Assembly (NCBI GenBank): GCA_017642935.1
Contig: JAEPOK010000001.1
Span: 372,001-436,000 of the forward strand
DNA from: Hyphomicrobiales bacterium
GTDB taxonomy: Bacteria; Pseudomonadota; Alphaproteobacteria; Rhizobiales; MH13
DNA: 64,000 nt
Direction: 5' to 3'
Under the pieces are notes generated by a model. That model worked only from the letters and a program-made list of their open reading frames with translations. It did no database searches and was not told the DNA's origin. Of this stretch, positions 12,900 through 43,077 are shown one piece after another. The position numbers and the translations under genes were made by a program. The stretch's first letter is position 1. Every line of letters starts with the position of its first letter.

Positions 12900-12923
12900 C
12901 ACACCCAAAAGGGAGACATCCAA

Positions 12924-13301: not shown

Positions 13302-13316
13302 CGGCCGATTGCACGG

Positions 13317-14600
13317 CTATGTGGCGCGCCAGCAGAGGCGCGCCACGCCAACACTGGCTTCGGATTCGTCAGCTTGCACGATAGGCACGCCCAAATGCCG
13401 CTCGCGTATCGCTGTCCAGACGGGGTTTTTGGCACCGCCTCCGGCAGTGAGAACGCGTTTTGGGGCAGGGGCGCCAAGCTCTGTCAGCCGTGCGTAACCT
13501 TGCGCCTCAATGCGGGCGATGCTCTCCAACATTCCTTTGAGAAAGTCCGCGTCACTTTGTGGGCGTGGTGCGAGCCGTGGCGCGAGATCTGGATCATTGA
13601 TGGGGAACCGTTCGCCGGGCTTGAGCAGCGGGTAATAGTCCAAGTCACTTGGTGTTTTGGGATCGATCTGCGCGCTTAATGCGGTCAGTTCATCGCTTGT
13701 GAAAAACGCGGCCAGCACACCGCCGCCGGTGTTGGATGCGCCGCCGGCCAGCCAGCTATTACCGACCTTGTGGCTGTAAACACCGCTGACCGGATCATCG
13801 ATGCGTTTATCGCTGAGCAGTTTGATCGCGAGCGTTGTGCCTAGCGAGGTCACAGCGTCACCGACATGTCGCCCGCCAGACGCTAGAAACGCCGCAATGC
13901 TGTCGGTGGTGCCCGCATGCAGTTGAAGGGTGGGCGATAATGCAAAACGTTTTGCTATGTCGCCGCCAAGTGTGGCGATGGGTGTGCCTGTGCGATGAAC
14001 GTCAGGCAGGATTTCGGTTCGCACGCCCAACGCTTCGAACCAGGATGGCCAGCGGCAGGTTTCTGGGTCCCAGCCGAGCTTTAACGCGTTGTTGTCGTCT
14101 GAGCCGAGCGAGGTGCCCGCAAGCTTTGCGGTGATGAAATCGGCTTGGTGCATGAGGTGCTTGGCTTTGCCAGCTTTGTCGTGGGCTTGCAGGTGCAACA
14201 TGCGCGCCAAGGCTGATGAGCTTCCGCGTGTGATGGATGTCGGTTCAGCAAAATGGTTGATGCGTTCAGCTTCCGGCGTGAACCCCGAGCTGTTGTACAA
14301 AAGCGCTGGTGTGACGGGGGTCAGCTGATCATCAACAAGAACTATGGACCCTGATGTTCCATCGACCGCGGCGCGGCTGATGTGCTGGGGATCAATGCCC
14401 AGGGTCTGTAACTGTTGGATTTGCGTGTCCAACGCCCGCGACACGGCATCCCACCAAGCCAGTGCGTCTTCGTTTGAGGTGGACGCGTGGCTCGCTTTCG
14501 CGGTTCCTATCACGCTTCCATTGCCGTTAACGACGGCGGTGCGCACACCGGAGGTGCCGATATCAATGCCAAGCGCGAAGTCGGATGCGCCGTTGGTCAT
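13317..14600 (-). CDS. FGGY-family carbohydrate kinase (D-ribulokinase-like group)
   Basis: 427 residues. FGGY kinase fold: GIDIGTSGVRTAVV (ATP loop), DGTSGSIVLVD, LHAGTTDSIAAFLASG and the C-terminal GGGAKNPVWTAIRE adenosine loop. The stretch LGSDDNNALKLGWDPETCRW is like the short D-ribulose kinase group of cyanobacteria and plants rather than xylulokinase or glycerol kinase; this is a recollection and not a search result. It is the last gene of the operon MBL-HAD-aldolase-kinase and overlaps the aldolase stop by 4 bases (ATGA). It would phosphorylate a ketose or polyol before aldol cleavage. Confidence 0.75.
   Translation of the reverse strand: MTNGASDFALGIDIGTSGVRTAVVNGNGSVIGTAKASHASTSNEDALAWWDAVSRALDTQIQQLQTLGIDPQHISRAAVDGTSGSIVLVDDQLTPVTPALLYNSSGFTPEAERINHFAEPTSITRGSSSALARMLHLQAHDKAGKAKHLMHQADFITAKLAGTSLGSDDNNALKLGWDPETCRWPSWFEALGVRTEILPDVHRTGTPIATLGGDIAKRFALSPTLQLHAGTTDSIAAFLASGGRHVGDAVTSLGTTLAIKLLSDKRIDDPVSGVYSHKVGNSWLAGGASNTGGGVLAAFFTSDELTALSAQIDPKTPSDLDYYPLLKPGERFPINDPDLAPRLAPRPQSDADFLKGMLESIARIEAQGYARLTELGAPAPKRVLTAGGGAKNPVWTAIRERHLGVPIVQADESEASVGVARLCWRAT
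13321..13346. terminator. Perfect 10-bp hairpin at the convergent ridA/kinase junction
   Basis: GTGGCGCGCC and GGCGCGCCAC form a perfect inverted repeat around a 6-base loop. It covers the last codons of the kinase gene and starts 20 bases after the ridA stop. There is no T-run on either side, so it may act as an mRNA 3'-end stabiliser or a Rho-assisted bidirectional stop and not a classical terminator. Confidence 0.45.
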
Positions 14601-15562
14601 GACTTACGGGCGGCCAGGGCTTGGCGGTAATTTTCGGCGTCCCAGTTGAGCAGCTCGGCCTCGGCCTCACTGCCTATGGCATTGGGCGTCCAGGATGGAG
14701 GCAGGCGCGTGAGAACATCGCTGAGGCATTGTGCCATCGCGCGCTGCGCCGACGTTGCATCGGCTCGAATAGCCAATCCTTGGCCCTCGATCAGACAGGC
14801 CGGTGCACCATCCACTGGTTTGGTCGGCAGGGCGGGTCCAAGAAAAACGACATGATCGGGGTAATAGGAGCCTGTCGTCGCAAGGCTGAACAGCCGCTTG
14901 TCCTGCGCCACCGCACTGGTGTTCAGCCAAACGAATCCATCTGGCGCATCGCTTTGAGGTGTCGCGCCATCCGTCACAATGGGCACGGCCAAGCGTATTT
15001 CCACTTCACACATTAGAGTGGCGACGTCGGGGGCGCTGTCTCCGGCAACGATCAAGCCGTGATTGCCGAGCACAAAAACCTGAACGTTGGGTGTCATCTC
15101 CGCGGCGATGGCTTCGGTCAACGGACGTCCGGGCTTTCGATAGGGCACGAATGCCGCCGGCAAGCCATTTAGTTTTTCGCGTGCCGCGTCCAACCCTTGA
15201 TCGCTGGTGGCATGGACGAGTGTAGCCACTGAGTGGGTGTGTGCGACGACGGGCCAATCGATAAGCGCGTGAAAGGTGGTCTCGATGGAGGGGCGCAGCC
15301 CGCGCTCGGGATCTAGTATGGCAGCCTGACAGGTTCCATCGCCGGCACCTTTAGCTTCAGAAAGAGCGATCACGCGGTCTACGGCGACGAAAATGTCTTG
15401 GTCGAGGGCGTTGGCAAGTTCCGTCCCGGAGGCTTTGATCCACAGTGTCTCGCCCAGTTTGATGGACGTGTTGCCGCCTGGGCCCTGGACGCGAAGCGGG
15501 TCGCTGCCGCAATCGGCGGAAAGCTCCAAGAAGTCGCGCGGAAGGGGTGCTTGCTCACCCAT
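14597..15562 (-). CDS. Class II aldolase/adducin-family protein (long form)
   Basis: 321 residues from ATG at 15562, chosen because AGGAGAGAG precedes it; an open frame continues further upstream but overlaps the HAD gene. The fold's phosphate/metal region is visible: GPGGNTSIKLG with WIKASGTEL, Zn ligands in VAHTHSVATLVHA, and the third His in LGNHGLIVAG. At over 300 residues it has an extra C-terminal part compared with fuculose-phosphate aldolase (about 215), like RhaD-type two-domain proteins. With the kinase and HAD genes it suggests cleavage of a phosphorylated sugar. The start overlaps the HAD stop by 8 bases and the stop overlaps the kinase start by 4. Confidence 0.75.
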   Translation of the reverse strand: MGEQAPLPRDFLELSADCGSDPLRVQGPGGNTSIKLGETLWIKASGTELANALDQDIFVAVDRVIALSEAKGAGDGTCQAAILDPERGLRPSIETTFHALIDWPVVAHTHSVATLVHATSDQGLDAAREKLNGLPAAFVPYRKPGRPLTEAIAAEMTPNVQVFVLGNHGLIVAGDSAPDVATLMCEVEIRLAVPIVTDGATPQSDAPDGFVWLNTSAVAQDKRLFSLATTGSYYPDHVVFLGPALPTKPVDGAPACLIEGQGLAIRADATSAQRAMAQCLSDVLTRLPPSWTPNAIGSEAEAELLNWDAENYRQALAARKS

Positions 15563-24512: not shown

Positions 24513-24638
24513 CGCATCGTTACGCCCTTACGTTGAATCGTACATGGATCAGCTTCAGGTCGTCCGATTTTCCTTCACCAGGTTCTCGCGATGTGTAAGG
24601 GTCGGCTAAAGTAGTCGTGTATCCTTCAGGGCCGGTTG

Positions 24639-25397
24639 ATGAATTATTCCTCGCCGCATGCGTCTTTTCGCACGCGTTGTGATCAGTGCTCCATCCATAA
24701 TCGCGCCATTTGCAGCCGAGCATCGTCGGCTGCCGCCCAAGAGCTTCAAAGCCTCAGCCGAATCCGTAAGTTTTCTGCTGGACAGGTGATCCTTGGTGAG
24801 CGTCAGCCGGGCGGATTTCTCGGTAATGTCGTCTCCGGCATGGTGAAGCTGTGCAAGACGCTCGAAGACGGCCGTCAGCAAGTGGTCGGGCTGCTGTTCC
24901 CGTCCGATTTTTTTGGTCGACCCTTTGAAGATGCCGCGCCGTTTTCCTTCGAGGCAGCGACAGATGTTGAGATCTGCGTGTTTGAACGCCAGGCGTTTGA
25001 GAGCCTGCTTGCGCAGTATCCCGAAGTTGAACATGAGCTGCTCGTGCAGGTGCTGACCGAGTTGGACGCTGCGCGTGAATGGATGGTGCTGCTTGGATGC
25101 CAAACGGCCCGCGAGAAGGTTGCAAGCTTCCTCTTAATGTTGCTGCGGCGGTCCAATCTCATGGGGTGTGAAAAGGCCGGGAAACCAGAAACACAAATCG
25201 TGACATTTCCGGTTAGTCGCAAGGATGTGGCACTCTATCTTGGCACGACACCGGAGACTGTATCGCGTCAGATTCAGTGGATGTCGCGCAACGACATTCT
25301 AACGATCATCGACGCGCAGACCTTTGCAATCACCGACGTGCACCGGTTGGCGCAGACGGCGGCACATGAAGAGTGGCTGGATCAGTTGAGCGCCTGA
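24639..25397 (+). CDS. fnrL: FnrL: Crp/Fnr-family oxygen-sensing regulator
   Basis: 252 residues from ATG 24639 (a TTG directly upstream is also possible). Cysteines at residues 14, 17, 25 and 113 (CDQCSIHNRAIC and VEICVFE) match the four [4Fe-4S] ligands of Rhodobacter FnrL. The cyclic-nucleotide-like barrel is followed by the recognition helix YLGTTPETVSRQIQWM, whose Glu, Ser and Arg read the TTGAT half-site in Fnr proteins. It activates microaerobic and anaerobic genes. The bd oxidase at the start of the window is a plausible target, but I saw no clear TTGAT-N4-ATCAA site here. It ends convergently with ppsA. Confidence 0.9.
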   Translation: MNYSSPHASFRTRCDQCSIHNRAICSRASSAAAQELQSLSRIRKFSAGQVILGERQPGGFLGNVVSGMVKLCKTLEDGRQQVVGLLFPSDFFGRPFEDAAPFSFEAATDVEICVFERQAFESLLAQYPEVEHELLVQVLTELDAAREWMVLLGCQTAREKVASFLLMLLRRSNLMGCEKAGKPETQIVTFPVSRKDVALYLGTTPETVSRQIQWMSRNDILTIIDAQTFAITDVHRLAQTAAHEEWLDQLSA

Positions 25398-27883: not shown

Positions 27884-28297
27884 TTAGCCCCATTGGCTTG
27901 CGAGGGCGCGCAGCGCATCGGTGCGGCTCAATTGGCCGACCAGATTGCCGCTATCCATCACCGGAAAGCGGCGAAACGGCTTTTCAATGAAGAGGTTTGT
28001 GGCGCTGATGATGTCGATACTGGCGTCGATCGTCGTCACTGGATGGCTCATATAAGCGTCCACATGCCCGCCCCAATCGCGATAGTAACTGGCATCCAGC
28101 GCAGCCTTCAGGCAGTCGCGCTTGGTGAGAACGCCGACCAGCAACCCATCACTGTCGAGTACTGGCGCGCCGGATATCCGCCGGTCGAGCAGGATGTTCA
28201 TCGCGCGATTGATTTCCATGTCAGGCGTCAGCGTCACCAGATCGCGCGTCATAAAGTCAGCGACCAGGGGCAGGGAATCGGCGGACCTGGTGTTCAT
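27884..28297 (-). CDS. CBS-domain-pair protein coupled to nqrM
   Basis: 137 residues, essentially one Bateman module: two CBS repeats (VADFMTRDLVTLTPDMEINR and DAYMSHPVTTIDASIDIISA). These bind adenosyl nucleotides such as AMP or ATP and act as energy sensors. Its ATG overlaps the stop codon of nqrM, so it is the last translationally coupled gene of the Na+-NQR operon. It could tune NQR or the next gene ppsA to cellular energy state; that is inference. The ORF is open further upstream, but the ATG at 28297 matches family length. Confidence 0.8.
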   Translation of the reverse strand: MNTRSADSLPLVADFMTRDLVTLTPDMEINRAMNILLDRRISGAPVLDSDGLLVGVLTKRDCLKAALDASYYRDWGGHVDAYMSHPVTTIDASIDIISATNLFIEKPFRRFPVMDSGNLVGQLSRTDALRALASQWG

Positions 28298-28464
28298 GGC
28301 TCGTGCTCCACCATTTTGCGGTTCGGGCAGGTGGCGCACTCAATGTCTTTCAGACAGGCAACGCCGCCGCAGGAGCCTTCGATCGGCTTGCGCCCTGCCA
28401 TCACACCGATGGCGAGCCCGCCGATGGCCAATGCGAAGATGCTGAAAGTGAAAAGAAAGATCAT
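28294..28464 (-). CDS. nqrM: NqrM, Na+-NQR maturation factor (DUF539)
   Basis: 56 residues. Read directly from the minus strand: one N-terminal helix (MIFLFTFSIFALAIGGLAIG) then GRKPIEGSCGGVAC and IECATCPNRK. The four cysteines (CGGVAC and CATC) are the hallmark of NqrM, which delivers iron for the intramembrane [2Fe-2S]/Fe site between NqrD and NqrE. It follows apbE by 9 bases and overlaps the CBS gene, consistent with the common nqrA-F-apbE-nqrM order. Confidence 0.92.
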   Translation of the reverse strand: MIFLFTFSIFALAIGGLAIGVMAGRKPIEGSCGGVACLKDIECATCPNRKMVEHEP

Positions 28465-28473: not shown

Positions 28474-29436
28474 CTACGCCGTCACATGGTCGGCGAAAGC
28501 GCCGGTCATTGTTTCGCGGAAGCCGGAGGGTGTTGGTTCTAAGAAAAGCGCCGCGATGCGCTGTTCTTGTGCGAGTTCAATCCCCCGGCTCGGCCCAAGG
28601 ACGGTGAGGGCGGTCGCCAGCGCATCGGCTTGCATGGCGCTGGCGGCCAGAACCGACACCGAGGCCAGGTCTTGATCAACTGGGCGCTGTTGGCGCGGGT
28701 CAATGAGGTGGCTGAACGCGATGCGCCCTCGATGGCCATTGGGTGTGTGGCCGGAACTTGCTAGCGCCATCTGCCCGGGCGCGACGATGCGGTGGGCCGT
28801 GATCTGACGCTCTCCTGGTCGCTCGATGGCAACCTGCCAGGGCCGGCCTGCGGGATGCTCACCGATAGCGGCCACTTCGCCGCCTAGCTCGACCAGTGCC
28901 GAGGTCACGCCTTCGTGACGCAAGGCTTGTTTGATCTCATCCAGGGCATGGCCCTTGGCGATGCCGCAAAGGTCCAGGGTCATGTCGGCCTGAGTCTTGC
29001 GGACGGCATCACCGCGAACACCGATCGCATCAAAGGTTCCCGAGCCCCCTTCAATGCGGCCAAAGCCAAACCGGGCAACCGCTGGTCCGACGGTTGGGTC
29101 GAAGGCGCCGCCAGTGGCACGTGCGACGTCGAGGCTTGCTGACACAACGCGGCAAACATCACCCGGCATGGCTTGCCAATCTGTGCTCGGCAAAGCGTTG
29201 AATCGTGAAATGTCAGAGTCGGCGCGCCAGGGTGACATCTGCTGGTCCACGCGCCGGATTACGGCTTCGATCAACGGGCGCAGACGCATTTCATCCAAGC
29301 CCGGCTCGCCGGAAAAGCGCCAGGTGCTGCCAAAGGCGTGCCCGCCAATAGACAAAGAAGAGGCTTGCGATGGAAGCGCCCAAACCAGCCCAATGGTTGC
29401 GGTACTGGCCAAAAAACTGCGTCGTGTAAACGTCAT
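28474..29436 (-). CDS. apbE: FAD:protein FMN transferase (ApbE)
   Basis: 320 residues. A signal peptide with an RR motif (MTFTRRSFLASTATIGLVWA) sends it out of the cytoplasm. ApbE uses FAD to attach FMN to Thr in [ST]GAT motifs of NqrB, NqrC or RnfG/D. Conserved parts visible: GHAFGSTWRFSG near the N-terminus, DLCGIAKGHALDEIKQAL (flavin site) and LASVSVLAASAMQADALATA with the metal-binding Asp. It follows nqrF by 2 bases, so it serves this NQR. Confidence 0.93.
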   Translation of the reverse strand: MTFTRRSFLASTATIGLVWALPSQASSLSIGGHAFGSTWRFSGEPGLDEMRLRPLIEAVIRRVDQQMSPWRADSDISRFNALPSTDWQAMPGDVCRVVSASLDVARATGGAFDPTVGPAVARFGFGRIEGGSGTFDAIGVRGDAVRKTQADMTLDLCGIAKGHALDEIKQALRHEGVTSALVELGGEVAAIGEHPAGRPWQVAIERPGERQITAHRIVAPGQMALASSGHTPNGHRGRIAFSHLIDPRQQRPVDQDLASVSVLAASAMQADALATALTVLGPSRGIELAQEQRIAALFLEPTPSGFRETMTGAFADHVTA

Positions 29437-29438: not shown

Positions 29439-30659
29439 TCAGACCCCGAAATCATCGTTGAAGATGTGATCGCGATCGACACCCAGATCGTCGAGCATCT
29501 GGAAAACCGCACGGATCATGAGTGGCGGGCCGCAGAGATGGTATTCGCAGTTCTCCGGTTCCGGATGGTCACGCAGATACCGGTCGAGTGCGATCTGATG
29601 GACAAAGCCGACGGCACCCTGCCAATCATCATCCGGCTGTGGGTCGGAGAGCGCGACTGTCCAATCGAAGTTTTCGTGCGTGGCCGCCAGCCCATCCAGC
29701 TCATCAACGTAAAGCAGTTCGGCCTTGTTGCGCGCGCCATACCAAAGCGACATCTTCCGCCCACTTTTGGTGATCCCGAGCTGCTCATGGATGAGCGCAC
29801 GAAGCGGCGCCATGCCAACGCCGCCACCAATGAAGACCATTTCCTTGTCGGTCGGTTGGGCGCGGAAGCTGCCGAACGGCCCGGACGTTATGACCTCCTG
29901 GCCCGGCTGCAAGGCGAAGAGCCATGACGATACGATCCCCGGCTCGGCCTCGGGGACGGATGGCGGCGGCAGAGCGAGACGAATGTTGAGAACGACGCGG
30001 CGGGCGGCCGTATCCTCTGGACGATTGGAAATGGAGTAGGCGCGGGTGACCTCTTCATCGCTGCGCACGCTGAGATTCTTGATCGATTGCCAAGCGGTGC
30101 TGTGCGCTTCGGGCACGTCAATGCTTGTGTAGTCGAGCGCGTAGGGCGGGGCGCTGACTTGCACATAATTGCCGGCGACGATCGTGGCGTCGACTTCATC
30201 AGGCAGTTGCAGAACGATCTCGCGGATGAGGGGCGTGAGGGCGGTAACCGAGTGAACGGTACAAGTGTAGCTGGTCGCGCCAACCCATTCCTGTGGCGCT
30301 TCGACCTGCATGTCGTCACGAAGCGTGACCTGGCAGGCAAGGTGGACTCCGGCGCGCCGGTCGGCATTGGAAAGCCGTGCGGTCTCAACCGGCTGGTAGC
30401 CTTGGTGTTCGTCGAGCACGGTGACCCGGCATAAGCCGCAAGTCCCAGCCCCGGCGCAGGCAGACGGCACAAGCACATCATGTTCATGCAGGGCGGTGAG
30501 AAGTTTTTGACCGGTTTTGACATCGAACGCATTCGAGCCGTTGACGGTTATAACGGCAGGGTGAGCCGGCATCAGTACACCCCGCGCCAGCATCACCATG
30601 GCGGTGAGCGCGAGCACCACGATGACGATCAAAAGGGTGCCGAACAGGATCACACTCAT
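29439..30659 (-). CDS. nqrF: Na+-NQR subunit F (NADH dehydrogenase, FAD/2Fe-2S)
   Basis: 406 residues. One N-terminal helix, then a ferredoxin domain whose [2Fe-2S] ligands are in [14 protein letters not shown] with the last Cys in HLACQV. The ferredoxin-reductase domain has the FAD motif [11 protein letters not shown] and the nucleotide motif [20 protein letters not shown]. NqrF takes hydride from NADH and passes electrons into the sodium pump. Its start overlaps the nqrE stop by 4 bases. Confidence 0.95.
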
Positions 30660-31917: not shown

Positions 31918-32709
31918 CTACAAACCCTCCTGCCGAAGCTGGTCAAGGAAGGGGCCGTAGCCGTTCGGGCCCATCCAAAATTGCAAGGCGAAGGTCACGC
32001 CATCCCCGGTGCGCGTCGCGCCGGAAATGCCGTCCACCTGATGCACGCTCTGCGCCTCGCCCCGCACAACCTCAATGACAATGTCGCCATGCTCATTGAG
32101 CAGTTCTTTGCCCGGCCACCGGGCTTGCCAGTCGGGCTCGGTGATCCGTGCGCCAAGGCCGGGGGTTTCGCCTTGCTCGGTGATCGTGAGGGTCGCGACA
32201 GTTGATAGGTCTGCCTCCAGCGCCAGCATGGCTCTGATGGTCGATGCGTAGCCGCTGCCATAAACGGGCAGGACAATGAGCAAGATGTTGCCGTCGCGTT
32301 CCAGAAGATGGACCGGCGCGTGGTTTGGTCGGCGGCGGATGCTTGCCAAATCTTCTTCGGTTGAGAGTTCGATCGATTGAGCCGGATCGTTGGCGGCGGC
32401 CATCATGTCGAAGCTGGCTGGATCGATCTCTGGCGCGAAGGCTCCGGTTGTCAGGTCAACGATCCGTGTTTCTAGCGCTGTAACGCCAGCTTCTTCCATC
32501 ACCTCGCGCATGCCCGGCAGCGTGTCGAGCATGGCCTCCATACGAGCGGCCTGCTCGGCCTCAATCTGTTCTTGTTGGATTGGGTCGAGCAGCACCGATG
32601 CGGTCGAGACCAAGACGGCACATACGAAGGCGACCAGCGCGGCGATCACAACCGTCTTGGTGGTGTCGTCGTTAGGGCGTGCCAAAATTGCGGCGACGGG
32701 GTTAGCCAT
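31918..32709 (-). CDS. nqrC: Na+-NQR subunit C (covalent FMN)
   Basis: 263 residues from ATG 32709; the longer open frame overlaps nqrB and is not supported. One N-terminal helix, then the periplasmic FMN-binding domain. The flavinylation motif is intact in DGISGATRTGDGVTFAL, where the Thr of SGAT receives FMN from ApbE. ETPGLGARITEPDWQARWPG is the second conserved block. It carries electrons on the outer face of the membrane toward NqrB. Confidence 0.95.
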   Translation of the reverse strand: MANPVAAILARPNDDTTKTVVIAALVAFVCAVLVSTASVLLDPIQQEQIEAEQAARMEAMLDTLPGMREVMEEAGVTALETRIVDLTTGAFAPEIDPASFDMMAAANDPAQSIELSTEEDLASIRRRPNHAPVHLLERDGNILLIVLPVYGSGYASTIRAMLALEADLSTVATLTITEQGETPGLGARITEPDWQARWPGKELLNEHGDIVIEVVRGEAQSVHQVDGISGATRTGDGVTFALQFWMGPNGYGPFLDQLRQEGL

Positions 32710-33541
32710 GCTGACCTCGTGCGTGGCGGCGCTCACGATTGTAGGCGTTGGCAAGCACCATGAGATGATCGATGAGCGGCGCAAAAAGGCTGGCAAGCAG
32801 GGCGGCAAAGACAACTGCCTCGGCCGTCAGGCCTTCCATGGAGAACCCAGCAAAAAGGGCTGTCAAAAAGCCAGCGAGGGCGCCGTAGACCCAACGACCG
32901 GGGTTGGTGCAGGCAGCGCCAAGAGGGTCCGCGACCAGGAACACCAGGCCGACCGACAGTGTGATGGCCAGAGAGATCGGGTCCCAGATTGTTGATGTGA
33001 AGCCGATGGCGGCGAGTGCGATGAGCGAGGTCGCCAAGAGAACACGCCAAGAAATGAGCCCGGCAATGAACAACAGAATCGCGCCGGGCAGTGTTGCCAG
33101 TGCGACCGTCAACTCGGGCGCAGCGAGCGTGAGTTGTGGAAACGAAAAGACCAGAAGGGCAAGTGACGCCGCTGCCGGGTTGACGAAGCCAAATCCTCGC
33201 CCGCCAAATACCAGTTCCCCAAGCACCACGCCAAGCGACAAGGCAACCGCCAGCTGCCAGGCCTCAACGCCAAGCGGTGCAAACGGGGTGACCACCATTG
33301 CGGTGGTCAAGCCGTGAAAAGAGAAATCAGCGTGACGCAGGAAGGCAAAAAGGTTTTCCCAGATCAGCGCCACAACCAGGCAGGTTAGAAACAACGGGAC
33401 GACGAGCGGTCCACGCGCGATGATATCCACCGCCAGGATTGGCGCGAGCGCGATCGCTTGTAGAAGGCTGACGCGGCCAGCGCTGGAGATCAGCGGCAGC
33501 AGAGGCGCCGCGCGCAGGGTTGGGCCGTTGAGATGGCGCAT
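32702..33541 (-). CDS. nqrB: Short NqrB/RnfD-like subunit of the NQR complex
   Basis: 279 residues; classical NqrB is about 410 and RnfD about 350. Helices and the signatures FGGRGFGFVNPAAASLALLV, LISWRVLLATSLIALAAIG and FLVADPLGAACTNPGRWVYG place it in the NqrB/RnfD family and at the nqrB position. It starts directly at the family core, with no N-terminal cytoplasmic region. No [ST]GAT flavinylation motif can be found: the loop between the FSFPQL and ISWR blocks, where it normally lies, is only about 25 residues here. The subunit may lack covalent FMN. Start ATG overlaps the nqrA stop by one base. Confidence 0.85.
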   Translation of the reverse strand: MRHLNGPTLRAAPLLPLISSAGRVSLLQAIALAPILAVDIIARGPLVVPLFLTCLVVALIWENLFAFLRHADFSFHGLTTAMVVTPFAPLGVEAWQLAVALSLGVVLGELVFGGRGFGFVNPAAASLALLVFSFPQLTLAAPELTVALATLPGAILLFIAGLISWRVLLATSLIALAAIGFTSTIWDPISLAITLSVGLVFLVADPLGAACTNPGRWVYGALAGFLTALFAGFSMEGLTAEAVVFAALLASLFAPLIDHLMVLANAYNRERRHARGQHG

Positions 33542-34909: not shown

Positions 34910-34927
34910 CATTGACGGTCGTCAATG
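34910..34927. promoter_or_regulatory. Inverted repeat in the nqrA/pentaheme-cytochrome gap
   Basis: CATTGACG-GT-CGTCAATG is a perfect 8-bp inverted repeat with a 2-base centre, about 65 bases from nqrA and 73 bases from the cytochrome start. Its position between divergent genes suggests an operator used by both. No regulator gene is adjacent. Confidence 0.5.
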
Positions 34928-35000: not shown

Positions 35001-36125
35001 ATGTGCCTTTCAGCTTTGCGCATCCCCAAAATCTTCGCCGTTGCCGTTTTGATCGCCGTGATCGGGCTGCCCGCCGGTCAGGTGGCCGCTCAAGATGATG
35101 CGGGAGAGAACGCGATCGTTCAGTTGCAAAGCATCGTCGAGGCTTGGCTTGCATCGCCACACGCCGACATCACCAGCGATGCATTCCACCATTGGGATGA
35201 GGATGGCGAAATCCCGGCAACCTGTGCGACCTGCCATACGAGCTTCGGTTTCATCGAATATGTGCGCGGCGCAATGGATCAGGCAGGTGTCGCGCCGATG
35301 GCGATGCCCACCGGCGGCACGGTGAATTGCGCGGCGTGCCATAGCGAGGCATCGGCGGTGCTGGTCAGCGTTCCTTTCCCGTCCGGCGTCAGCGTTGACA
35401 CGTTTGGCAGCTCGGCGACCTGCGCTGTCTGTCATCAAGGCCGTAATGCCGGGACCGACGTTGTGGCAGCGACCGATGGGTTGGACGAGGATTCGGTGTC
35501 GGAAGATCTGAGCTTTATAAACGTCCACTACGCGCCCTCAGCAGCAACGCTGATGGGATCGATTACCGGTGGTGGGTTCGAATATCCAGGCCGTGACTAT
35601 AAGGGCCAGTTCACGCACGTGCCGGACTTTGCGACCTGCACAAGCTGCCACCAGCCGCACAGCCTTGAGCCGGCGGCGGCGATCGAAACCTGCGCTGCGT
35701 GCCACACTGGTGCTGAGGAGTTTGCCGACATCCGCACGACACAGGTTGATGTGGACGGCGACGGCGATACGTCCGAAGGGATCGCCAACCCGATCCATAC
35801 ACTGCATGACCAGCTCCACGCTGCCATCCAGGCCTATGGCGCCGATGTCGCTGGGACGCCGATCATTTATGCCGATCAGTTCCCGTATTTCTTCATCGAC
35901 ACCAACGGCGATGGCGAGGTCAGCGACGGCGAAGCAGCGTTCCCCAATCGCTATGCCGCTTGGACCCCGCGCCTGTTGAAGGCTGCTTACAACTACCAGT
36001 TCATCGCCAAGGATCATGGCGCGTATGCGCACAATCCTCACTATGCGCTGCAACTGCTTTATGACAGCCTTGAGGACCTGAGCGGCCAGGTGAGCGTAGA
36101 TATTGCCTCGCTAACAAGGCCCTAG
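35001..36125 (+). CDS. Secreted pentaheme cytochrome c with EF-hand motifs
   Basis: 374 residues. A hydrophobic N-terminal segment (IFAVAVLIAVIGLPAGQVAA) serves as signal peptide. Five CxxCH haem motifs: CATCH (75-79), CAACH (110-114), CAVCH (141-145), CTSCH (213-217) and CAACH (231-235). After the haem region are two calcium-type acidic loops, VDVDGDGDTSEG (near 250) and the textbook EF-hand loop DTNGDGEVSDGE (300-311). It resembles soluble multihaem electron carriers, but I do not recognise a named family. Location divergent from the NQR operon and upstream of an antiporter suggests a link to periplasmic electron transfer. Partner and acceptor unknown. Confidence 0.8.
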   Translation: MCLSALRIPKIFAVAVLIAVIGLPAGQVAAQDDAGENAIVQLQSIVEAWLASPHADITSDAFHHWDEDGEIPATCATCHTSFGFIEYVRGAMDQAGVAPMAMPTGGTVNCAACHSEASAVLVSVPFPSGVSVDTFGSSATCAVCHQGRNAGTDVVAATDGLDEDSVSEDLSFINVHYAPSAATLMGSITGGGFEYPGRDYKGQFTHVPDFATCTSCHQPHSLEPAAAIETCAACHTGAEEFADIRTTQVDVDGDGDTSEGIANPIHTLHDQLHAAIQAYGADVAGTPIIYADQFPYFFIDTNGDGEVSDGEAAFPNRYAAWTPRLLKAAYNYQFIAKDHGAYAHNPHYALQLLYDSLEDLSGQVSVDIASLTRP

Positions 36126-36177: not shown

Positions 36178-37347
36178 ATGGATCTCGCCCAATCGCACGC
36201 GCTGGTGCTTGTTGCTATCGGCGTCCTCTTTCTGGGTGGTCTGGCACTGGATGCCTTCGGGCGGATCGTGCATGTTCCGCGCGTCACACTTCTGATGCTG
36301 CTTGGTGCGCTGCTTGGCCCACCCATCCTGGATGTGCTGCCGGACGCAATTGCCGACGGCAACCCGATCTACACCGATCTTGCGCTGACCATGGTGGCGT
36401 TTCTGCTTGGCAGCTCGCTGAGCCGGGCGACGCTGGCGGCGCATGGCCGGGAAATCCTGCTCATCTCGATCATCGTCGTGCTCGTTTCGATCACGCTTGT
36501 TGCCGGTGGGCTTTATCTGCTCGGCGTGCCGCTGCCCATCGCTCTGCTGCTGGGTGGTATTTCCGCGGCCACCGCACCGGCGGCTACGCATGATGTCATC
36601 CGGCAGTCGGGCAAAACAGGCAAATTCGTCACCAATCTCACGGGCATCGTCGCCATCGATGATGCTTGGGGCCTTCTGGCCTTCAGTGTGCTTTTGACAC
36701 TTGCCGCTCTTTTGCTTGGCAACGGCACCGATGGCGGGGCCGTGTTTCACGCTTTCTATGAGGCTGGTGGTGGCATTGTCCTTGGCTTTGCGATCGGGCT
36801 GCCGGCGGCTTACTTGACGGGCAGGTTGAAGCAAGGCGAACCCTCGCTGGTGGAGGCGATTGGCGTGGTGATGCTCTGCACCGGCCTTTCGCTCTATTTT
36901 GAGGTTTCGTTCCTCTTGACCGGCATGGTGTGCGGCGCGGTGATCGTCAATTTTGCCCGTCACCATGATCGGCCGTTTCATGAGATTGAGCGGATCGAAT
37001 GGCCGTTTCTGCTGCTCTTTTTCGTCATGGCCGGCGCCTCGCTGCATGTTGAAGCGTTGATGGCGCTCGGCGTTGCCGGTGTCGGTTATTGCGTCCTGCG
37101 GTTTGGCGCGCGGCTGGTTGGCGGCTGGCTTGGCGGCAAGGCGTCTGGCCTCCCCGCTGGCGAAGGGGTCTTGATGGGCATGGCGCTGATGCCGCAGGCG
37201 GGCGTTGCCATCGGCATGGCGCTGGTCGCCAGCGATCACTTCCCGCAGTATCGCGAGACGCTGGTGACGATCACCATTGCCAGCACCATCTTTTTTGAGA
37301 TCGTCGGGCCGCTGATGACGCAGTATGCGCTGAAAAAAACGGACTGA
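36178..37347 (+). CDS. Cation:proton antiporter (CPA family, Na+/H+ exchanger type)
   Basis: 389 residues with about 12 helices. TAPAATHDVIRQSG and IVAIDDAWGLLAF hold the paired acidic residues and broken-helix motif typical of Na+(K+)/H+ antiporters. There is no C-terminal TrkA-N domain, so it is a minimal membrane form. It lies 52 bases after the cytochrome gene on the same strand. With NQR creating a sodium gradient nearby, use or balance of that gradient is plausible. It ends convergently with dnaE2. Confidence 0.88.
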   Translation: MDLAQSHALVLVAIGVLFLGGLALDAFGRIVHVPRVTLLMLLGALLGPPILDVLPDAIADGNPIYTDLALTMVAFLLGSSLSRATLAAHGREILLISIIVVLVSITLVAGGLYLLGVPLPIALLLGGISAATAPAATHDVIRQSGKTGKFVTNLTGIVAIDDAWGLLAFSVLLTLAALLLGNGTDGGAVFHAFYEAGGGIVLGFAIGLPAAYLTGRLKQGEPSLVEAIGVVMLCTGLSLYFEVSFLLTGMVCGAVIVNFARHHDRPFHEIERIEWPFLLLFFVMAGASLHVEALMALGVAGVGYCVLRFGARLVGGWLGGKASGLPAGEGVLMGMALMPQAGVAIGMALVASDHFPQYRETLVTITIASTIFFEIVGPLMTQYALKKTD

Positions 37348-37362: not shown

Positions 37363-40300
37363 TCAGTGAAAATCGCGTGATTTGGGGATGATGCGCACAT
37401 CGCGTGGATGGGCGCCGCGGCTTGGCACCGCGTCCTGCAAACGGGCATCGCGGACAAGCCCGGCTTTCACACTGTCGGCGCGTGAAAGCACGGGTCGGAG
37501 AACCTCATCGGCTCGGGCCAGGCTGTTGGAGGCCGCGTGCAGCGTGGACAGGCTTTGCAAGGCATCGGTGCGATCTTTCAAAGACGTTGCCATCAAGTGG
37601 ATCACACCCTCCTTGCTGCGCTGAACATGGCCCATCACCTGCATCAGCTTTGATGCCATCACCACGCGGCGAAAGCGTTCAAAGCGGCTCGCCCAAAGCA
37701 CCACATTCACAATGCCGGTTTCGTCTTCCAGCGTGATGAAGATGGCGTTGCCCTTGCCGGGACGTTGGCGGATCAGCACCACGCCTGCCGTTTTCACCCA
37801 TTGTCCATCAGGGGCGTTTTCCACTTGCTGGCAGGTGAGCAGTTTTTCGGCATCGAACTGCGGGCGCAGAAGTGCCATGGGATGAGCTTTCAGCGACAGG
37901 CGAATGGTCTGGTAGTCGGCGACCACGTGCTCATTCAGCGCCATGGTGGGCAGCTTGGCATCGGGTTCGGCGCTCAGTTCATTGCGGTTGGCGGCTTCGA
38001 ACAAGGGTAGGGGGTCATCATCGGGAAGGCGCCGCACGGCCCAAAGTGCCTCGCGGCGGTCCATCCCGGTGGAGCGGAACGCATCGGCCTCGGCCAGAAG
38101 CTTGAGCGCCCGGTGGGGCAGGCGGGCACGCTGCCAAAGATCTTCGGCGTTCTCGTAGTTTTCGGTTCGAGCGGTAAACAGTCTGTCCGCCCACTCTTGG
38201 TGAAAGCCATCGACCTGACGAAAGCCAAGGCGCAGCGCCAGCTCGCCGTCTTCGCGCTCCAGCGTGTTGTCCCAGTGGCTGTGGTTGATGTCCACTTTGC
38301 GCACCTCGACATGGTTCTCCTGCGTGTTGCGCACGATCTGTGCGGGCGCGTAAAAGCCCATCGGCTGAGCGTTGAGCAGGGCGCAGGCGAACACCGCCGG
38401 GTGGTGGTGTTTGATCCAGGAGGAGATGTAGACCAGCTTGGCAAAACTGGCGGCGTGGCTTTCAGGAAAGCCGTATTCGCCAAAGCCCTTAATCTGGTTG
38501 AAGCAACGCTCGGCGAAGTCACGCTCATAGCCGCGCTTGACCATGCCTTCGACCATCATCTCTTCGAACTTGTGGATCGTGCCGACATGGCGAAACGTTG
38601 CCATGGCACGGCGCAGGCCGTTGGCCTGTTCGGGGCTGAACTCTGCAGCCACCATGGCGATCTTCATCGCCTGCTCCTGAAACAGCGGCACCCCAAGCGT
38701 ACGCCCGAGCACATGCCGTAGCTCCTTGGGATCATGCGGCGGGGCGGGCTCGGGAAACACCACCTCTTCCTCGCCATTTCGCCGACGCAGATAGGGGTGA
38801 ACCATGTCGCCCTGGATCGGGCCGGGACGGACGATGGCAACCTGAATGACGAGGTCGTAGAACTCGCGCGGTTTCAGGCGCGGCAGCATGTTGATCTGCG
38901 CCCGGCTTTCCACCTGGAACACGCCGATGGATTCGCCTCGGCAGAGCATGTCGTAGACGTCTTCATCGCCCTCTTCGATGTCGTGCATTTCAAGGTGCAG
39001 CTTCTCATGCTCTTTGAGCAGGTCGAGCCCCTTGCGGATGCAGGTCAGCATGCCGAGCGCCAACACATCAACCTTCATCAGGCCAAGCGCGTCGATATCG
39101 TCCTTGTCCCATTCGATGAAGGTGCGATCGTCCATCGCCGCATTGCCAACGGGTACCAGCGCGTCCAGTCGGTCGCGGGTGAGGACGAAACCGCCCACAT
39201 GTTGGGAGAGATGGCGCGGAAAGCCCATGATCTGATGGGCAAGGTCAAGCACCTGGTGAACGATGGGATTGGCCGGATCGAGGCCGGCTTCGCGCATGTG
39301 CTTGGCGTTCACCTCGCGGCCAAACGATCCCCAGACGGTGCCGGCCATGCGGGCAGTGACATCTTCGGTCAGCCCCAAAGCCTTGCCGACCTCGCGCAAG
39401 GCGCTGCGCGGGCGATAGCGCACGATGGTCGCGGCGATGCCTGCCCGGTCGCGGCCATAGCGCTCATAGATATGCTGGATGACCTCCTCGCGTCGTTCAT
39501 GCTCAAAATCGACGTCGATATCGGGCGGTTCTTTGCGCTCTGATGAAATGAAGCGAGCGAACAAAAGGTCGTGTTCGGCCGGATCGACAGCGGTGATGCC
39601 CAGCACGTAGCAGACGGCGGAATTGGCAGCCGAGCCGCGCCCCTGGCACAAAATACCCTTGTCCTGCGCGACGCGCACGATCTCGTGGATCGTCAGAAAA
39701 TAGGGCGCGTAGTCTAGCTGTTTGATCAGCGCCAATTCGTCCTTCAAAAGCCGTTTGACCTTCTCCGATACGCCGGTGTGGTAGTAGCGGTAGGGCGCGT
39801 GGCGCCAGACCAGTTCCTCCAGCCAGTCCTGCGCGGTTCGGCCAGGCGGCACGGGCTCGTCGGGGTAGGTGTAGGCAAGCTGATCAAGCGTGAAGTCGAT
39901 GCGGGCGAGAGCGGCCTGCGTTTCGGTCAACGCCTCCGGTACATCCTTGAACAGGCGGGCCATTTCCGCTGGCGGTTTCAGGTGCCGTTCGGCATTGGCT
40001 TCCAGTCGCTTGCCAGCCTGATCCAGCGTGCACCCTTCGCGGATGCAGGTGAGCACATCTTGCAAGGCGCGTTGTTCCGGCGCGTGATAGAGGACGTCGT
40101 TGGTCGCCAGAAGCGGCACGCCTGCCTTGTCGGCTTGCGTTTTCAACGCGGCCAAGCGGCGGCGATCATCGCCCTTGCGACCCATGGTGGCGGCGAGCCA
40201 GACCGCGCCCGGCGCATGGTGGTTGAGCGCTTGGAGCGTTGCCTTGAGGCGCGCTTCGCCGGTGTCTGGCAGGACAATCAAAAGCAGGTCGCGGGCGTGG

Positions 40301-40695
40301 CTGAACAGGTCCTCGCAGGTGAGCAGGCAGTCGCCCTTCTCGGCGCGGCGCTTGCCCAGCGTGAGAAGGCGGCAGAGCCTGCCCCAGCCTTCTTTGTTTT
40401 CCGGATAGGCGAGAATGTCCGGTGTGCCATCGGCAAAAACCAGCCGTGCGCCAACGACCAGTTGAAACCTCTCGGCTGCTTTGCGCACGGAGGCGTCTTC
40501 GTGTTCGCGAAGTTCTTTCAAAGCGCTGTAGGCGCGCACGACACCGGCGACGCTGTTCTCATCGGCGATCCCGATCCCGGTATGGCCGAGCGCCAGGGCC
40601 TCTGTCACCAGATCGCCAGGATGCGACGCGCCGTGCAGGAAGGTGAAGTTGCTGCGCACGCAAAGATCGGCAAAGGCGGGGTTCGTGTCTGGCAT
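37363..40695 (-). CDS. dnaE2: Error-prone DNA polymerase DnaE2 (ImuC)
   Basis: 1110 residues. C-family polymerase: N-terminal PHP domain (FADLCVRSNFTFLHGASHPG), palm acidic residues in PPDIDVDFEHERREEVIQHI, and the C-terminal OB-fold (NAIFITLEDETGIVNVVLWA). Length and lack of the beta-clamp-rich tail separate it from the replicative DnaE. It performs SOS-induced translesion synthesis with ImuA and ImuB. ATG overlaps the imuB stop by one base (TGATG). Third gene of the cassette behind a LexA box. Confidence 0.96.
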   Translation of the reverse strand: MPDTNPAFADLCVRSNFTFLHGASHPGDLVTEALALGHTGIGIADENSVAGVVRAYSALKELREHEDASVRKAAERFQLVVGARLVFADGTPDILAYPENKEGWGRLCRLLTLGKRRAEKGDCLLTCEDLFSHARDLLLIVLPDTGEARLKATLQALNHHAPGAVWLAATMGRKGDDRRRLAALKTQADKAGVPLLATNDVLYHAPEQRALQDVLTCIREGCTLDQAGKRLEANAERHLKPPAEMARLFKDVPEALTETQAALARIDFTLDQLAYTYPDEPVPPGRTAQDWLEELVWRHAPYRYYHTGVSEKVKRLLKDELALIKQLDYAPYFLTIHEIVRVAQDKGILCQGRGSAANSAVCYVLGITAVDPAEHDLLFARFISSERKEPPDIDVDFEHERREEVIQHIYERYGRDRAGIAATIVRYRPRSALREVGKALGLTEDVTARMAGTVWGSFGREVNAKHMREAGLDPANPIVHQVLDLAHQIMGFPRHLSQHVGGFVLTRDRLDALVPVGNAAMDDRTFIEWDKDDIDALGLMKVDVLALGMLTCIRKGLDLLKEHEKLHLEMHDIEEGDEDVYDMLCRGESIGVFQVESRAQINMLPRLKPREFYDLVIQVAIVRPGPIQGDMVHPYLRRRNGEEEVVFPEPAPPHDPKELRHVLGRTLGVPLFQEQAMKIAMVAAEFSPEQANGLRRAMATFRHVGTIHKFEEMMVEGMVKRGYERDFAERCFNQIKGFGEYGFPESHAASFAKLVYISSWIKHHHPAVFACALLNAQPMGFYAPAQIVRNTQENHVEVRKVDINHSHWDNTLEREDGELALRLGFRQVDGFHQEWADRLFTARTENYENAEDLWQRARLPHRALKLLAEADAFRSTGMDRREALWAVRRLPDDDPLPLFEAANRNELSAEPDAKLPTMALNEHVVADYQTIRLSLKAHPMALLRPQFDAEKLLTCQQVENAPDGQWVKTAGVVLIRQRPGKGNAIFITLEDETGIVNVVLWASRFERFRRVVMASKLMQVMGHVQRSKEGVIHLMATSLKDRTDALQSLSTLHAASNSLARADEVLRPVLSRADSVKAGLVRDARLQDAVPSRGAHPRDVRIIPKSRDFH

Positions 40696-42350
40696 CAGGC
40701 GAAAAGTCCGTGCACGAACCAGCCGGGACGCTCGGTCTCCTGGCCGTAGAGCCCGTCGCGGAACACCCAGAAACGGCGGCCTTGCGTGTCTTCCACGCGG
40801 TAATAGTCGCGGGTGAGGCTGGCATCATCGAGCCGCCACCATTCCGGAGCGATCCTTTCAGGCCCCTCGGCGCGTGCCACATCGTGCAGCACGCGGCGCC
40901 AACGGAATTTCAGCGGCGGTCCGTCGGGAATTTCCGCCAGCGCTTCGATGCGCTGCGGATGCTGGAACATGTGGAGGGGGCGGCGCGGCGGTTCATCAGG
41001 ATGGCCGGCGTCCCAAACAAGGTCCGGCATGGCGATCTGATCGGTCAGCTGTTTGGAAGGATAGTCCTTGGCGGCGACCTCATAAGCGGCGCGCTCGGGG
41101 ATGTGGGTTTGCGCACTGGCAAAGCGCAGTACCGCGTCCTTGCCGAGCCGGGTTGAAAGCGTGTCGACAAGCGCGGCCACCTCCTCATCGGCCATTTCAT
41201 GGCTATCAAGGCTGGTCTGAGGCTGCGCAAACGGCGCGCAGGCGGCCACCGACAGACGTAGAAGGTCGTAGCCGAAACCGGGATCAAGCGGATCGGCGAG
41301 CGTGTCGATGCGCTCGCGGAAAAGTCGCAAAATGGGCGCGGCTGCACGGGTGGGCAGGGACGTTTCCACGCGCAAACGGCGCACCGCACCATCGGTGCGG
41401 AACAGGCTTGCCTCGAATGCCGTGCCGCCTTGCCCACGCTTTTCCAGCATCGCACCAGCCTCGCCCATCAAATGCTCGATGGTCGCCAGCACATCCTCTT
41501 CGCGGCCAATCGGTTCGCCGAACCGACGCTCCACCGTGCATTGGGGCAAGGGGCGGCGGGCAATGATGGCGATGTCTTCTTCGCCAAGAACCCGTGTCAG
41601 ATTTGTGGGCAGATCCCTGCCGAAACGCGCCGCCAAGGGTGCGCGCGGCCGGGTGGCGAGATCGCCGATGGTGGCAAGCCCGGCGCGGTTCAGGGCGACG
41701 CAGGTGTCGTGGCCAATGCCCAGTGCAGCCACGGGCAGCGTGGCCATGGCAGCGGGTTCGGCGCCTTTGGGCACGATGCCACCTTTGCCAAAACGGGCAA
41801 GGGCGCGGGCCGTGTCGGGGGTGGATGCGATGGCAGAGGCGATCTCCATGCCGGCTTGCGTGAAGCGGAGGCTTAGATCGTTGCGCAGTTCGCTCTCGCC
41901 GCCGAAAAGATGGGCGCAGCCGGTGATGTCGAGCACCACGCCATCGGCGCCATCCAAGGCGACCAGAGGTGTGTAGCGATCACAGAAATCGGCCATGCGG
42001 TCCAGAAGCGCGCTGTCGGCGGGCCGGTCGGTATCGACGGCGATAAGCTCCGGCACGCGCGCCCTTGCATCGGCCAGTGTCAGACCAGGGGTCAGGCCAA
42101 GCGTCAGCGCAGTTTGGCTGACGGCTGCGAGCCGCATCGCGCCGCGATGCTTCTCGATGAAGACGATCGGAGCCTTATCCTGTTCGGGCCAATGGCTTGC
42201 CTGCCGCCTTAAGCGATCGGCGGGCAGAAACGGAAACCACACCGCCAGATAGCGGCTCGCCGGGGAGCGGCTGACCGGCTGAGCGTTTTTCGCCTGCGAT
42301 ACGCGTGATGGCTTGCTCTGTTGCGATGGATTTGAACTGGCCGAGCTCAT
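40695..42350 (-). CDS. imuB: ImuB, inactive Y-family polymerase of the mutasome
   Basis: 551 residues from ATG 42350, which has GGAG seven bases upstream; a GTG 15 bases earlier is possible. The Y-family fold begins at SRYLAVWFPFLPADRLRRQA, but the catalytic acidic residues of true Y polymerases (an Asp in the first motif) are absent, as expected for ImuB, which bridges the beta-clamp and DnaE2. The gene overlaps the end of imuA by 176 bases in another frame, an unusually long coding overlap. Confidence 0.93.
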   Translation of the reverse strand: MSSASSNPSQQSKPSRVSQAKNAQPVSRSPASRYLAVWFPFLPADRLRRQASHWPEQDKAPIVFIEKHRGAMRLAAVSQTALTLGLTPGLTLADARARVPELIAVDTDRPADSALLDRMADFCDRYTPLVALDGADGVVLDITGCAHLFGGESELRNDLSLRFTQAGMEIASAIASTPDTARALARFGKGGIVPKGAEPAAMATLPVAALGIGHDTCVALNRAGLATIGDLATRPRAPLAARFGRDLPTNLTRVLGEEDIAIIARRPLPQCTVERRFGEPIGREEDVLATIEHLMGEAGAMLEKRGQGGTAFEASLFRTDGAVRRLRVETSLPTRAAAPILRLFRERIDTLADPLDPGFGYDLLRLSVAACAPFAQPQTSLDSHEMADEEVAALVDTLSTRLGKDAVLRFASAQTHIPERAAYEVAAKDYPSKQLTDQIAMPDLVWDAGHPDEPPRRPLHMFQHPQRIEALAEIPDGPPLKFRWRRVLHDVARAEGPERIAPEWWRLDDASLTRDYYRVEDTQGRRFWVFRDGLYGQETERPGWFVHGLFA

Positions 42351-43056
42351 GGTGCCACTCCACACGCCAGCTTTGTCCGTGGGTGCCGGCTTTGTTGCGT
42401 AAAAGGGTGATGTCGAAGGTTGGATATCCAGGGGCGCCCGCTGCCAAAGCCCGTGAGGGCGCGGCGCGCACCTGCCAGCGGGTGAAGGCGGTGCTTGCCT
42501 GCTCTTGGGTGGCGGCGCGCAACAAAAAAGGGGTTGTGCCTGAGTGTTCGGCGGCCAGCGCCAAGCGCCGCGTTGCGGTCAGATCAAGCTCTTTGGGTGA
42601 TCCCCAGGCTTCGATAATAACGGCGCTGAGAGAGGCGCAGCGCACCGCCTCCAGCCCGGCAGATAAAAGATGAATCGGCTTGCCGACCCGCACGCTGATG
42701 AGATTGGCCGGATCAAGTCCGATGCCGCTTAACCCGTGCGGATAAAGCCGGCCTGTTTCGCTTTCGCTCATCGTTTGGCGGATCCACACAATGGAACGTG
42801 CATCTTCAGAACGGTTTGAGAGCGTGGCCCTTTGGACAAGCGCCGCAGCAAAGCCACTGGTGGCGGCCATATCGGCGGTCTCGCTGGCGTAAGCTTCGTG
42901 CAAAAGCCCCAGCGGCAGACCGCCTTTCAGATGCGCATCGATGGCAGGAACACCCAGGGCAAGCTGGCCACGCGCACGCCATGTATGGTCACGGGGGGTT
43001 AGCGCCTCCAATTGGCGGCGTAAGTTTACGGCGGACGCGTTTATCGGTTGGCCCAT
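42175..43056 (-). CDS. imuA: ImuA, RecA-like SOS mutasome protein
   Basis: 293 residues from ATG 43056 (a GTG at 43068 is the alternative). LPLGLLHEAYASETADMAAT is the degenerate RecA-like region where the Walker A motif is eroded, as in ImuA homologues. Needed with ImuB and DnaE2 for damage-induced mutagenesis. A LexA box lies 29 bases upstream. The C-terminal 58 codons overlap imuB. Confidence 0.92.
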   Translation of the reverse strand: MGQPINASAVNLRRQLEALTPRDHTWRARGQLALGVPAIDAHLKGGLPLGLLHEAYASETADMAATSGFAAALVQRATLSNRSEDARSIVWIRQTMSESETGRLYPHGLSGIGLDPANLISVRVGKPIHLLSAGLEAVRCASLSAVIIEAWGSPKELDLTATRRLALAAEHSGTTPFLLRAATQEQASTAFTRWQVRAAPSRALAAGAPGYPTFDITLLRNKAGTHGQSWRVEWHHELGQFKSIATEQAITRIAGEKRSAGQPLPGEPLSGGVVSVSARRSLKAAGKPLARTG

Positions 43057-43077
43057 GATGTGATTCACAGCCTTAAG

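Follow-up and report, generated by a model that had tools for sequence, protein, structure and literature searches.

A six-subunit NQR variant with a short NqrB and a neighbouring pentahaem cytochrome, a probable exporter of NADH electrons into the periplasm

The Na+-translocating NADH:quinone oxidoreductase (NQR) passes electrons from NADH through flavin adenine dinucleotide (FAD) and the [2Fe-2S] cluster of NqrF, the [2Fe-2S] cluster of NqrDE, the flavin mononucleotide (FMN) of NqrC, and the FMN and riboflavin of NqrB to quinone, according to PMC12174285 and PMC9325719. A 64-kb stretch of DNA from a bacterium of the order Hyphomicrobiales (contig JAEPOK010000001.1, positions 372,001 to 436,000), here called the window, carries an nqr operon with a short nqrB gene whose product has no covalent-FMN site. 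Where do the electrons go once they have reached NqrC? We propose with fair confidence, on the basis of sequence comparisons, that the complex is a six-subunit NQR with its return path removed and that it would act as an NADH:cytochrome c electron exporter under oxygen limitation. Its NADH electrons would probably be delivered to the periplasm.

The nqrB open reading frame (32702-33541, minus strand), whose coordinates the earlier note on this DNA had given correctly, encodes 279 residues, compared with 411 residues read for the Vibrio cholerae NqrB chain. The claim of that note that the protein is about 130 residues short and has neither the N-terminal region nor the [ST]GAT loop was borne out. 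The membrane core aligns with V. cholerae NqrB, and three stretches are missing: the first ~50 residues, a ~50-residue insert between TM1 and TM2, and ~60 residues holding S233-G-A-T236. Position 209 of the TIGR01937 profile corresponds to residue 135 of the window protein and position 280 to residue 145, and the Pfam profile NQR2_RnfD_RnfE matches at 2.8e-31 in two stretches (profile positions 12-132 and 173-291). No GAT motif occurs anywhere in the protein, and a second flavinylation motif of this kind was rejected for that reason. Individual sites were compared in an alignment of 21 short, four gammaproteobacterial and 20 classical NqrB proteins, from which the decaying locus L105 and L116 were left out (L and G numbers denote loci and genomes). 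The T236 column holds threonine in all 20 classical proteins, is deleted in all 21 short ones and holds aspartate in the four gammaproteobacterial ones, which are carried by metagenome-assembled genomes and retain the FMN loop. The FMN loop and the N-terminal quinone-site helices are missing from all 21 short proteins. These amphipathic helices are also missing from the four gammaproteobacterial ones, and the quinone-site residues 26, 29 and 33 named in PMC10643135 are absent from all 25 non-classical NqrBs. Among the quinone contacts, F159 is kept in 0/21 and G141 in 6/21 short proteins. A263, described in PMC12174285 as a backbone ligand of the NqrB Na+ site, falls in a gap in 20 of the 21.

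The division between an altered and an intact part of the complex is also reflected in the scores against the curated NCBIfam profiles. The window NqrB fails its equivalog cut-offs (at best 111.9 against 414 and 95.4 against 349.9 bits), and NqrA lies below all five nqrA cut-offs (e.g. 337.6 against 505 and 269.8 against 321.05 bits). Two classical operons of the same order, used as controls, pass with NqrB (L049, 599.9 and 507.7 bits; L050, 624.1 and 540.2 bits) and pass two nqrA cut-offs (577.5 and 466.3 bits; 592.9 and 469 bits, respectively). NqrA and NqrB of the short loci L070 and L129 and of the gammaproteobacterial locus L004 likewise fall below the cut-offs. In the window, NqrF (TIGR01941, 421 against 295 bits), NqrD (TIGR01939, 272.9 against 244.85 bits), NqrE (TIGR01940, 286.1 against 247.55 bits) and NqrC (TIGR01938, 185.2 against 144 bits) all pass. 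The subunits of electron input are thus intact, whereas those of output are altered.

The flavinylation motif DGISGAT of NqrC is intact in the window, with its threonine codon at 32014-32016, and is kept in every aligned row. Its last residue is serine instead of threonine in L038, L039, L040 and L043; serine should be able to accept FMN. The window's genome (G000) holds a single FMN_bind match, which is NqrC, and a single ApbE match, which is the apbE gene of the operon (28474-29436). For the role of T225 of V. cholerae NqrC we follow PMC12174285. The expectation of the earlier note that NqrC is flavinylated and that the usual FMN site of NqrB is lost therefore stands as a prediction, and the changed electron path that it proposed is supported at the level of sequence. 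Its description of an otherwise complete NQR operon holds in part. All six genes nqrABCDEF, by which a Na+-NQR is recognized, are present in one operon. The quinone helices are gone, however, NqrA scores below its cut-offs, and a cytochrome gene and an FNR-type box have been added, so that the locus is more than an ordinary NQR with one odd subunit.

The added cytochrome has five CXXCH motifs, and its gene lies divergent from nqrA at a distance of 155 bp. Adjacency was counted in 18 loci (the window, L003, L038-L048, L070, L071 and L103-L105). A pentahaem gene adjoins the operon in 15 of them and is divergent from nqrA in 13; in L044 it lies downstream of the operon with one gene between, and in L105 it lies upstream on the same strand and is broken. 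Across 297 genomes of the order, the cytochrome gave 13 clear hits, in 11 of the 12 short-NqrB genomes and in two others; a 14th hit (G165, E 1e-3) was dropped. The Fisher p value for this co-occurrence is 2.8e-17, uncorrected for relatedness among genomes that are not independent. All five CXXCH motifs and many further residues are conserved across 21 aligned cytochromes. Among solved structures, no match to the cytochrome had an E value below 0.003. The cytochrome is also encoded on five plasmids. In four of these (L128-L131) a short-NqrB operon adjoins it; the four were found through the cytochrome and hence stand outside the 15 of 18. The fifth, from Defluviimonas (L127, 9986-19084), carries a PepSY/cytochrome b561/DUF2271/ApbE module with a PepSY-flavodoxin-NAD-binding fusion, 2-8 kb from the same cytochrome and beyond an opposed two-component system. 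This single case suggests to us that one cytochrome is served by two different flavin exporters, both apparently linked to NAD(P)H. Downstream of the pentahaem gene in Pseudooceanicola algae are genes for cytochrome oxidase.

The 280-bp region upstream of nqrA was scanned for the palindrome TTGAY-N4-RTCAA, which we take to be the FNR/FnrL/FixK consensus. The box was found in 12 of 20 short regions (among them L043, which has no cytochrome), in none of four gammaproteobacterial and in none of 21 classical ones. Counted among the 20 regions are the plasmid loci L128-L131, with a box in L130 and L131; L105 and L071 are excluded. Elsewhere in these loci, 12 matches fall within 743,559 bp. The box in the window is the sole match in 64 kb, with 0.18 expected. 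Because related loci are not independent, a binomial value for the box overstates certainty, but the contrast with the classical operons is still clear. The Defluviimonas cytochrome also has a box upstream, and no exact box precedes the cytochromes of G102 and G161. A regulator of the FNR/FixK type probably induces the operon and the cytochrome jointly when oxygen is low.

With the step after FMN-NqrC lost and the quinone site taken apart, the electrons would most simply move outward. Electrons from NADH would pass through the FAD and [2Fe-2S] cluster of NqrF and the [2Fe-2S] cluster of NqrDE to the FMN of NqrC. From there they would leave for the pentahaem cytochrome; its gene adjoins the operon and seems to share its control, which is what suggests export. 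The cytochrome would hand them on to a periplasmic or terminal acceptor. NqrB would serve as a docking scaffold and perhaps as an ion path.

A parallel to this arrangement is known from Methanosarcina acetivorans, where RNF, a redox pump of the same family, is genetically tied to the multihaem cytochrome MmcA, as the variant is to its own cytochrome in 15 of 18 loci. According to the proposal in PMC4023990, the multihaem cytochrome is reduced by RnfG. RnfD of M. acetivorans also resembles the short NqrB in having SGTF at the place where SGAT would be expected. The archaeal RNF has RnfB and RnfC and uses ferredoxin, whereas the variant has NqrA and NqrF and uses NADH. Beyond the residues of the window NqrB, the family profile of the M. 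acetivorans-type RnfD has 19 positions in the FMN loop, compared with 61 in NqrB and bacterial RnfD (~42 fewer); the numbers are again 19 and 61 when the L070 protein replaces that of the window. With RnfD compared by its family profile and that paper only, we infer that this loop may have become shorter on two occasions, each time as a multihaem cytochrome took over as acceptor. The chances are about even that the RNF/NQR family has in this variant a third way of working, as a one-way six-subunit NADH:multihaem-cytochrome-c oxidoreductase for low oxygen, which would be independent of and parallel to the Methanosarcina Rnf-cytochrome system and share with it the shortened FMN loop of the B/D subunit.

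The variant shares with the Na+-NQR of the V. cholerae type the six subunits in the same order, ApbE, NqrM, and NqrC, D, E and F that pass curated cut-offs. It differs in the absence of the FMN loop and the quinone-site helices from NqrB, in the low score of NqrA, and in the addition of a CBS gene, the cytochrome gene and the box. In the two-subunit Nqr/Rnf-like flavinylation systems, for which one-way NAD(P)H export is proposed in PMC8238504 and PMC11334425, the NqrB-like membrane protein also lacks the flavinylation threonine. Those systems, found mainly in Actinobacteria and the candidate phyla radiation, consist of an NqrB-NqrF fusion and one NqrC-like protein, whereas the variant is a full six-subunit complex; its NqrB is not fused to a PF00175 NAD-binding domain, and NqrB and NqrF are separate. 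The PepSY/DUF2271/ApbE modules likewise combine an ApbE-linked periplasmic flavin protein with an NAD-binding membrane protein, but this membrane protein is unrelated. Searches of the open-licence PubMed Central literature yielded neither a six-subunit NQR whose NqrB lacks the flavin nor one linked to a multihaem cytochrome, and nothing on a T236Y mutant; no such form is mentioned in the consulted passages of PMC4014512 on NQR evolution. Two-subunit Nqr/Rnf-like proteins without the threonine are thus already known, and the six-subunit form tied to a pentahaem cytochrome appears to be new.

Beyond the window, 21 further short-NqrB loci were obtained, 17 through NqrB and four on complete plasmids. 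NqrB matched in 40 of the 297 genomes of the order, 12 of them with the short form (L038-L048 besides the window); the 11 other short loci and three longer ones were fetched, and the remaining 25 genomes were judged by match span and open frame. A class-level search of 337 genomes at E 1e-15 gave the short form in G546 and G411 besides the window's own genome. The phylum-level search, matched by 215 of 398 genomes, added at least three (G905, G887 and G927) among the matches listed, and rare short forms may be missed among its weaker matches. L003 is a short locus from the contigs of a named genome. The plasmid copies come from Paracoccus seriniphilus, Nitratireductor sp. OM-1, Pseudooceanicola algae and Shinella sp. 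HZN7, all Alphaproteobacteria. A tblastn search of plasmids with the short NqrB gave no match, although these four plasmids encode one; we guess that the low-complexity filter is the cause. The plasmid operons are annotated as ordinary NQR and their NqrB as "RnfABCDGE type ... subunit D". Membership in RNF was rejected because NqrA and NqrF are present, not RnfB and RnfC. In the Nitratireductor sp. OM-1 plasmid (L129, 3330-4306), apbE is annotated as two open reading frames.

The earlier note had suggested a phylogeny to see whether the short form is a clade, and the trees largely agree with this. In a tree of NqrD, NqrE and NqrF, the branch between the 21 classical forms and the 17 short plus four gammaproteobacterial ones has support of 100/100, and a branch with 100/96 sets the short forms apart from all others. 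In a tree of NqrD and NqrE rooted on RNF, the classical clade (99/94) and the gammaproteobacterial one (100/100) are well supported, while the short clade reaches just 84/49. The trees hold no NQR of Bacteroidota, Chlamydiota or Planctomycetota, L105 was left out, and L048 and L071 form long branches. For the Pseudomonadota sampled, the topology makes the variant an old side branch of NQR and not a recent truncation.

Export of electrons has to be weighed against other explanations, of which a quinone reductase with a shortened internal path is the main rival. With the FMN loop gone, FMN-NqrC would dock closer to NqrB and pass electrons to its riboflavin and on to quinone at a remodelled site. 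The riboflavin contacts named in PMC10643135 and PMC9325719 are partly kept in the short NqrBs: G198 in 21/21, D346 in 20/21 and T/S162 in 18/21, and the window protein has T162, N203, A205, F342 and D346. An NqrC-like flavin has been modelled beside a non-covalent flavin site in the two-subunit complexes (PMC11334425), and NqrA, present in 17 of 18 short loci, also speaks for this path. N200 (12/21) and N203 (10/21) are less well kept, however, with glycine at position 200 in the window, and the quinone contacts G141 and F159 and the N-terminal helices are largely or wholly lost. As it also leaves the cytochrome and the FNR-type box unexplained, we regard this rival as unlikely. Electron flow in the opposite direction is more doubtful still. 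Here the cytochrome would bring electrons of a periplasmic donor to FMN-NqrC and NqrF, and NADH would be made at the cost of the ion gradient. The sister complex RNF can run in reverse according to the review PMC12174285. The nuoH gene of complex I was found in all 17 genomes searched for it and COX1 in all 14, which makes the variant an addition to a normal respiratory chain; forward oxidation of NADH is thus not otherwise missing, which counts for reverse flow. Yet no recurrent donor enzyme was noticed beside the loci, whose neighbours were not annotated systematically, and the FNR-type control and the Defluviimonas cytochrome near an apparently NAD(P)H-linked exporter fit export better.

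The adjacency of the cytochrome might instead be regulatory or historical, with NqrC giving its electrons to different acceptors in the periplasm, for example flavoproteins or other cytochromes. A FAD_binding_2 flavoprotein with a Tat-like start (by eye) lies divergent from the operon in L003 (6490-8085) and is a possible alternative acceptor, and L071 (G411, 7429-15412) encodes a tetrahaem CXXCH protein that is separated from nqrB by one gene, at ~1.8 kb on the upstream side. The gammaproteobacterial loci showed no haem protein, and the cytochrome also exists without NQR. Given the co-occurrence and adjacency counts above, this explanation is very improbable. That the short gene is an artefact, a frameshift or a decaying gene is refuted. 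L105 (G927) does look decayed, as nqrB and nqrC run together, nqrF is truncated and the cytochrome frame is broken. Extension of the window nqrB in the same frame to a TTG start (369 residues) reads nqrA out of frame and does not restore NqrB. A sequencing error is ruled out by 20 other open copies of 253-280 residues, four of them on complete plasmids. Ratios of nonsynonymous to synonymous substitution rates (dN/dS) of 0.13, 0.15 and 0.22 indicate purifying selection on nqrB in the three close pairs compared. Neither of the two events that the earlier note had named as restoring a full NqrB, an alternative start or a sequencing error, has therefore occurred.

Several observations weigh against the export reading itself. 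L003, L043 and L071 have no neighbouring cytochrome, and their genomes gave no cytochrome homologue at E 0.01 in a search that took in the genomes of L003-L007, G243 and G411. The four gammaproteobacterial genomes have lost the FMN threonine yet have no pentahaem cytochrome, which shows that loss of the FMN site does not require one. Conversely, G102 and G161 (L067 and L066) have the cytochrome without NQR, NqrA included, so that it is able to function with partners other than NQR; ApbE is altogether absent from G161, and the cytochrome there cannot serve an ApbE-made flavoprotein. No redox partner was seen near these two lone cytochromes among neighbours judged by length and first residues only. 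The retention of NqrA and the partial retention of D346 and T/S162 fit export poorly. NqrM was detected in six of 13 short-NqrB genomes compared with three of three classical ones, although so short a gene is easily missed. The authors of PMC4023990 see a potential flavin site in the SGTF of M. acetivorans RnfD. The AlphaFold model of NqrB (six-row alignment) is of low confidence, with pLDDT 62.5 and about ten long helices. Its best structural matches are all NqrB or RnfD, at TM-scores near 0.35 and Z of 8.3-10.2, which are middling for helical bundles, and the model thus shows just the expected fold. None of the analyses showed contact or electron transfer. In favour of export stand the contrast between the input and output halves, the loss of T236 with the NqrC motif kept, the adjacent cytochrome and the FNR-type box. 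The Defluviimonas flavin exporter near the same cytochrome (one case), the absence of nqrA from the genome of G411, which has a short NqrB, and the parallel with M. acetivorans RnfD point the same way.

If export is correct, the variant would give bacteria a route from NADH to periplasmic cytochromes beside complex I. It could also help to show where NQR moves sodium. The route of Na+ is debated and placed either through NqrB or through the NqrD-E pair, as proposed for RNF (PMC12174285). The clade keeps NqrDE and NqrC without the NqrB FMN, the quinone helices and A263. Should the complex still pump Na+, coupling would have to take place in the first half of the path, from NqrF through NqrDE to NqrC; absence of pumping would support NqrB as the Na+ route. 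Where NqrF serves as the marker, as in PMC8238504, short-NqrB loci would be counted as NQR.

The genes follow one another on the minus strand in the order nqrA-nqrB-nqrC-nqrD-nqrE-nqrF-apbE-nqrM-CBS, and their ends mostly overlap or touch; the ATG of nqrB overlaps the stop codon of nqrA. The features are collected in Table 1.

Table 1. Features of the nqr locus and its surroundings in the window
Feature	Position	Strand	Basis or remark
nqrA homologue, 434 aa	33541..34845	minus	Pfam NQRA_N/2nd/SLBB matches; below NCBIfam nqrA cut-offs
Short nqrB homologue, 279 aa, without covalent-FMN site and N-terminal quinone-site helices	32702..33541	minus	
NqrB residues 136-145, junction in place of the FMN-threonine loop of classical NqrB	33107..33136	minus	TIGR01937 profile, alignment
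nqrC, 263 aa, periplasmic FMN-binding subunit	31918..32709	minus	TIGR01938; PDB NqrC match 1e-51
DGISGAT flavinylation motif, NqrC residues 226-232	32014..32034	minus	Alignment with V. cholerae NqrC
nqrD, 221 aa	31252..31917	minus	TIGR01939
nqrE, 202 aa	30656..31264	minus	TIGR01940
nqrF, 406 aa, NADH/FAD/2Fe-2S input subunit	29439..30659	minus	TIGR01941
apbE, FAD:protein FMN transferase	28474..29436	minus	Pfam ApbE 1.7e-65
nqrM, 56 aa, presumed maturation factor of the NqrDE [2Fe-2S] cluster	28294..28464	minus	PF04400 over cut-off
Double-CBS-domain protein, hallmark of the cluster	27884..28297	minus	Pfam CBS, two stretches
Candidate FNR/FixK-type box TTGACGGTCGTCAA, between nqrA and the cytochrome gene	34912..34925		Palindrome match
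Pentahaem c-type cytochrome, 374 aa, five CXXCH, signal-peptide-like start (by eye)	35001..36125	plus	Divergent from nqrA
Na+/H+ antiporter-like protein, downstream of the cytochrome; link uncertain	36178..37347	plus	PF00999
Crp/FNR-family regulator with N-terminal Cys cluster, candidate ligand of the box	24636..25397	plus	Pfam cNMP_binding, HTH_Crp_2

A CBS-domain hit was obtained in 18 of 18 short, four of four gammaproteobacterial and three of 21 classical loci, and the gene lies at the end of the operon in the short and gammaproteobacterial branch. The protein is a possible nucleotide-sensing regulator of the complex. Two distant members, the window (36178-37347) and L046 (194-1393), have a Na+/H+ exchanger-like gene (PF00999) after that of the pentahaem cytochrome, and ion transporter genes were also seen by eye near some other loci. 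Further downstream in the window (37363-43068) lie a DNA polymerase III alpha-like (dnaE2-like) gene and an imuB-like gene with IMS domains, which probably form a mutagenesis cassette. Beside them, where imuA would be expected, is a 297-aa open reading frame without a Pfam match.

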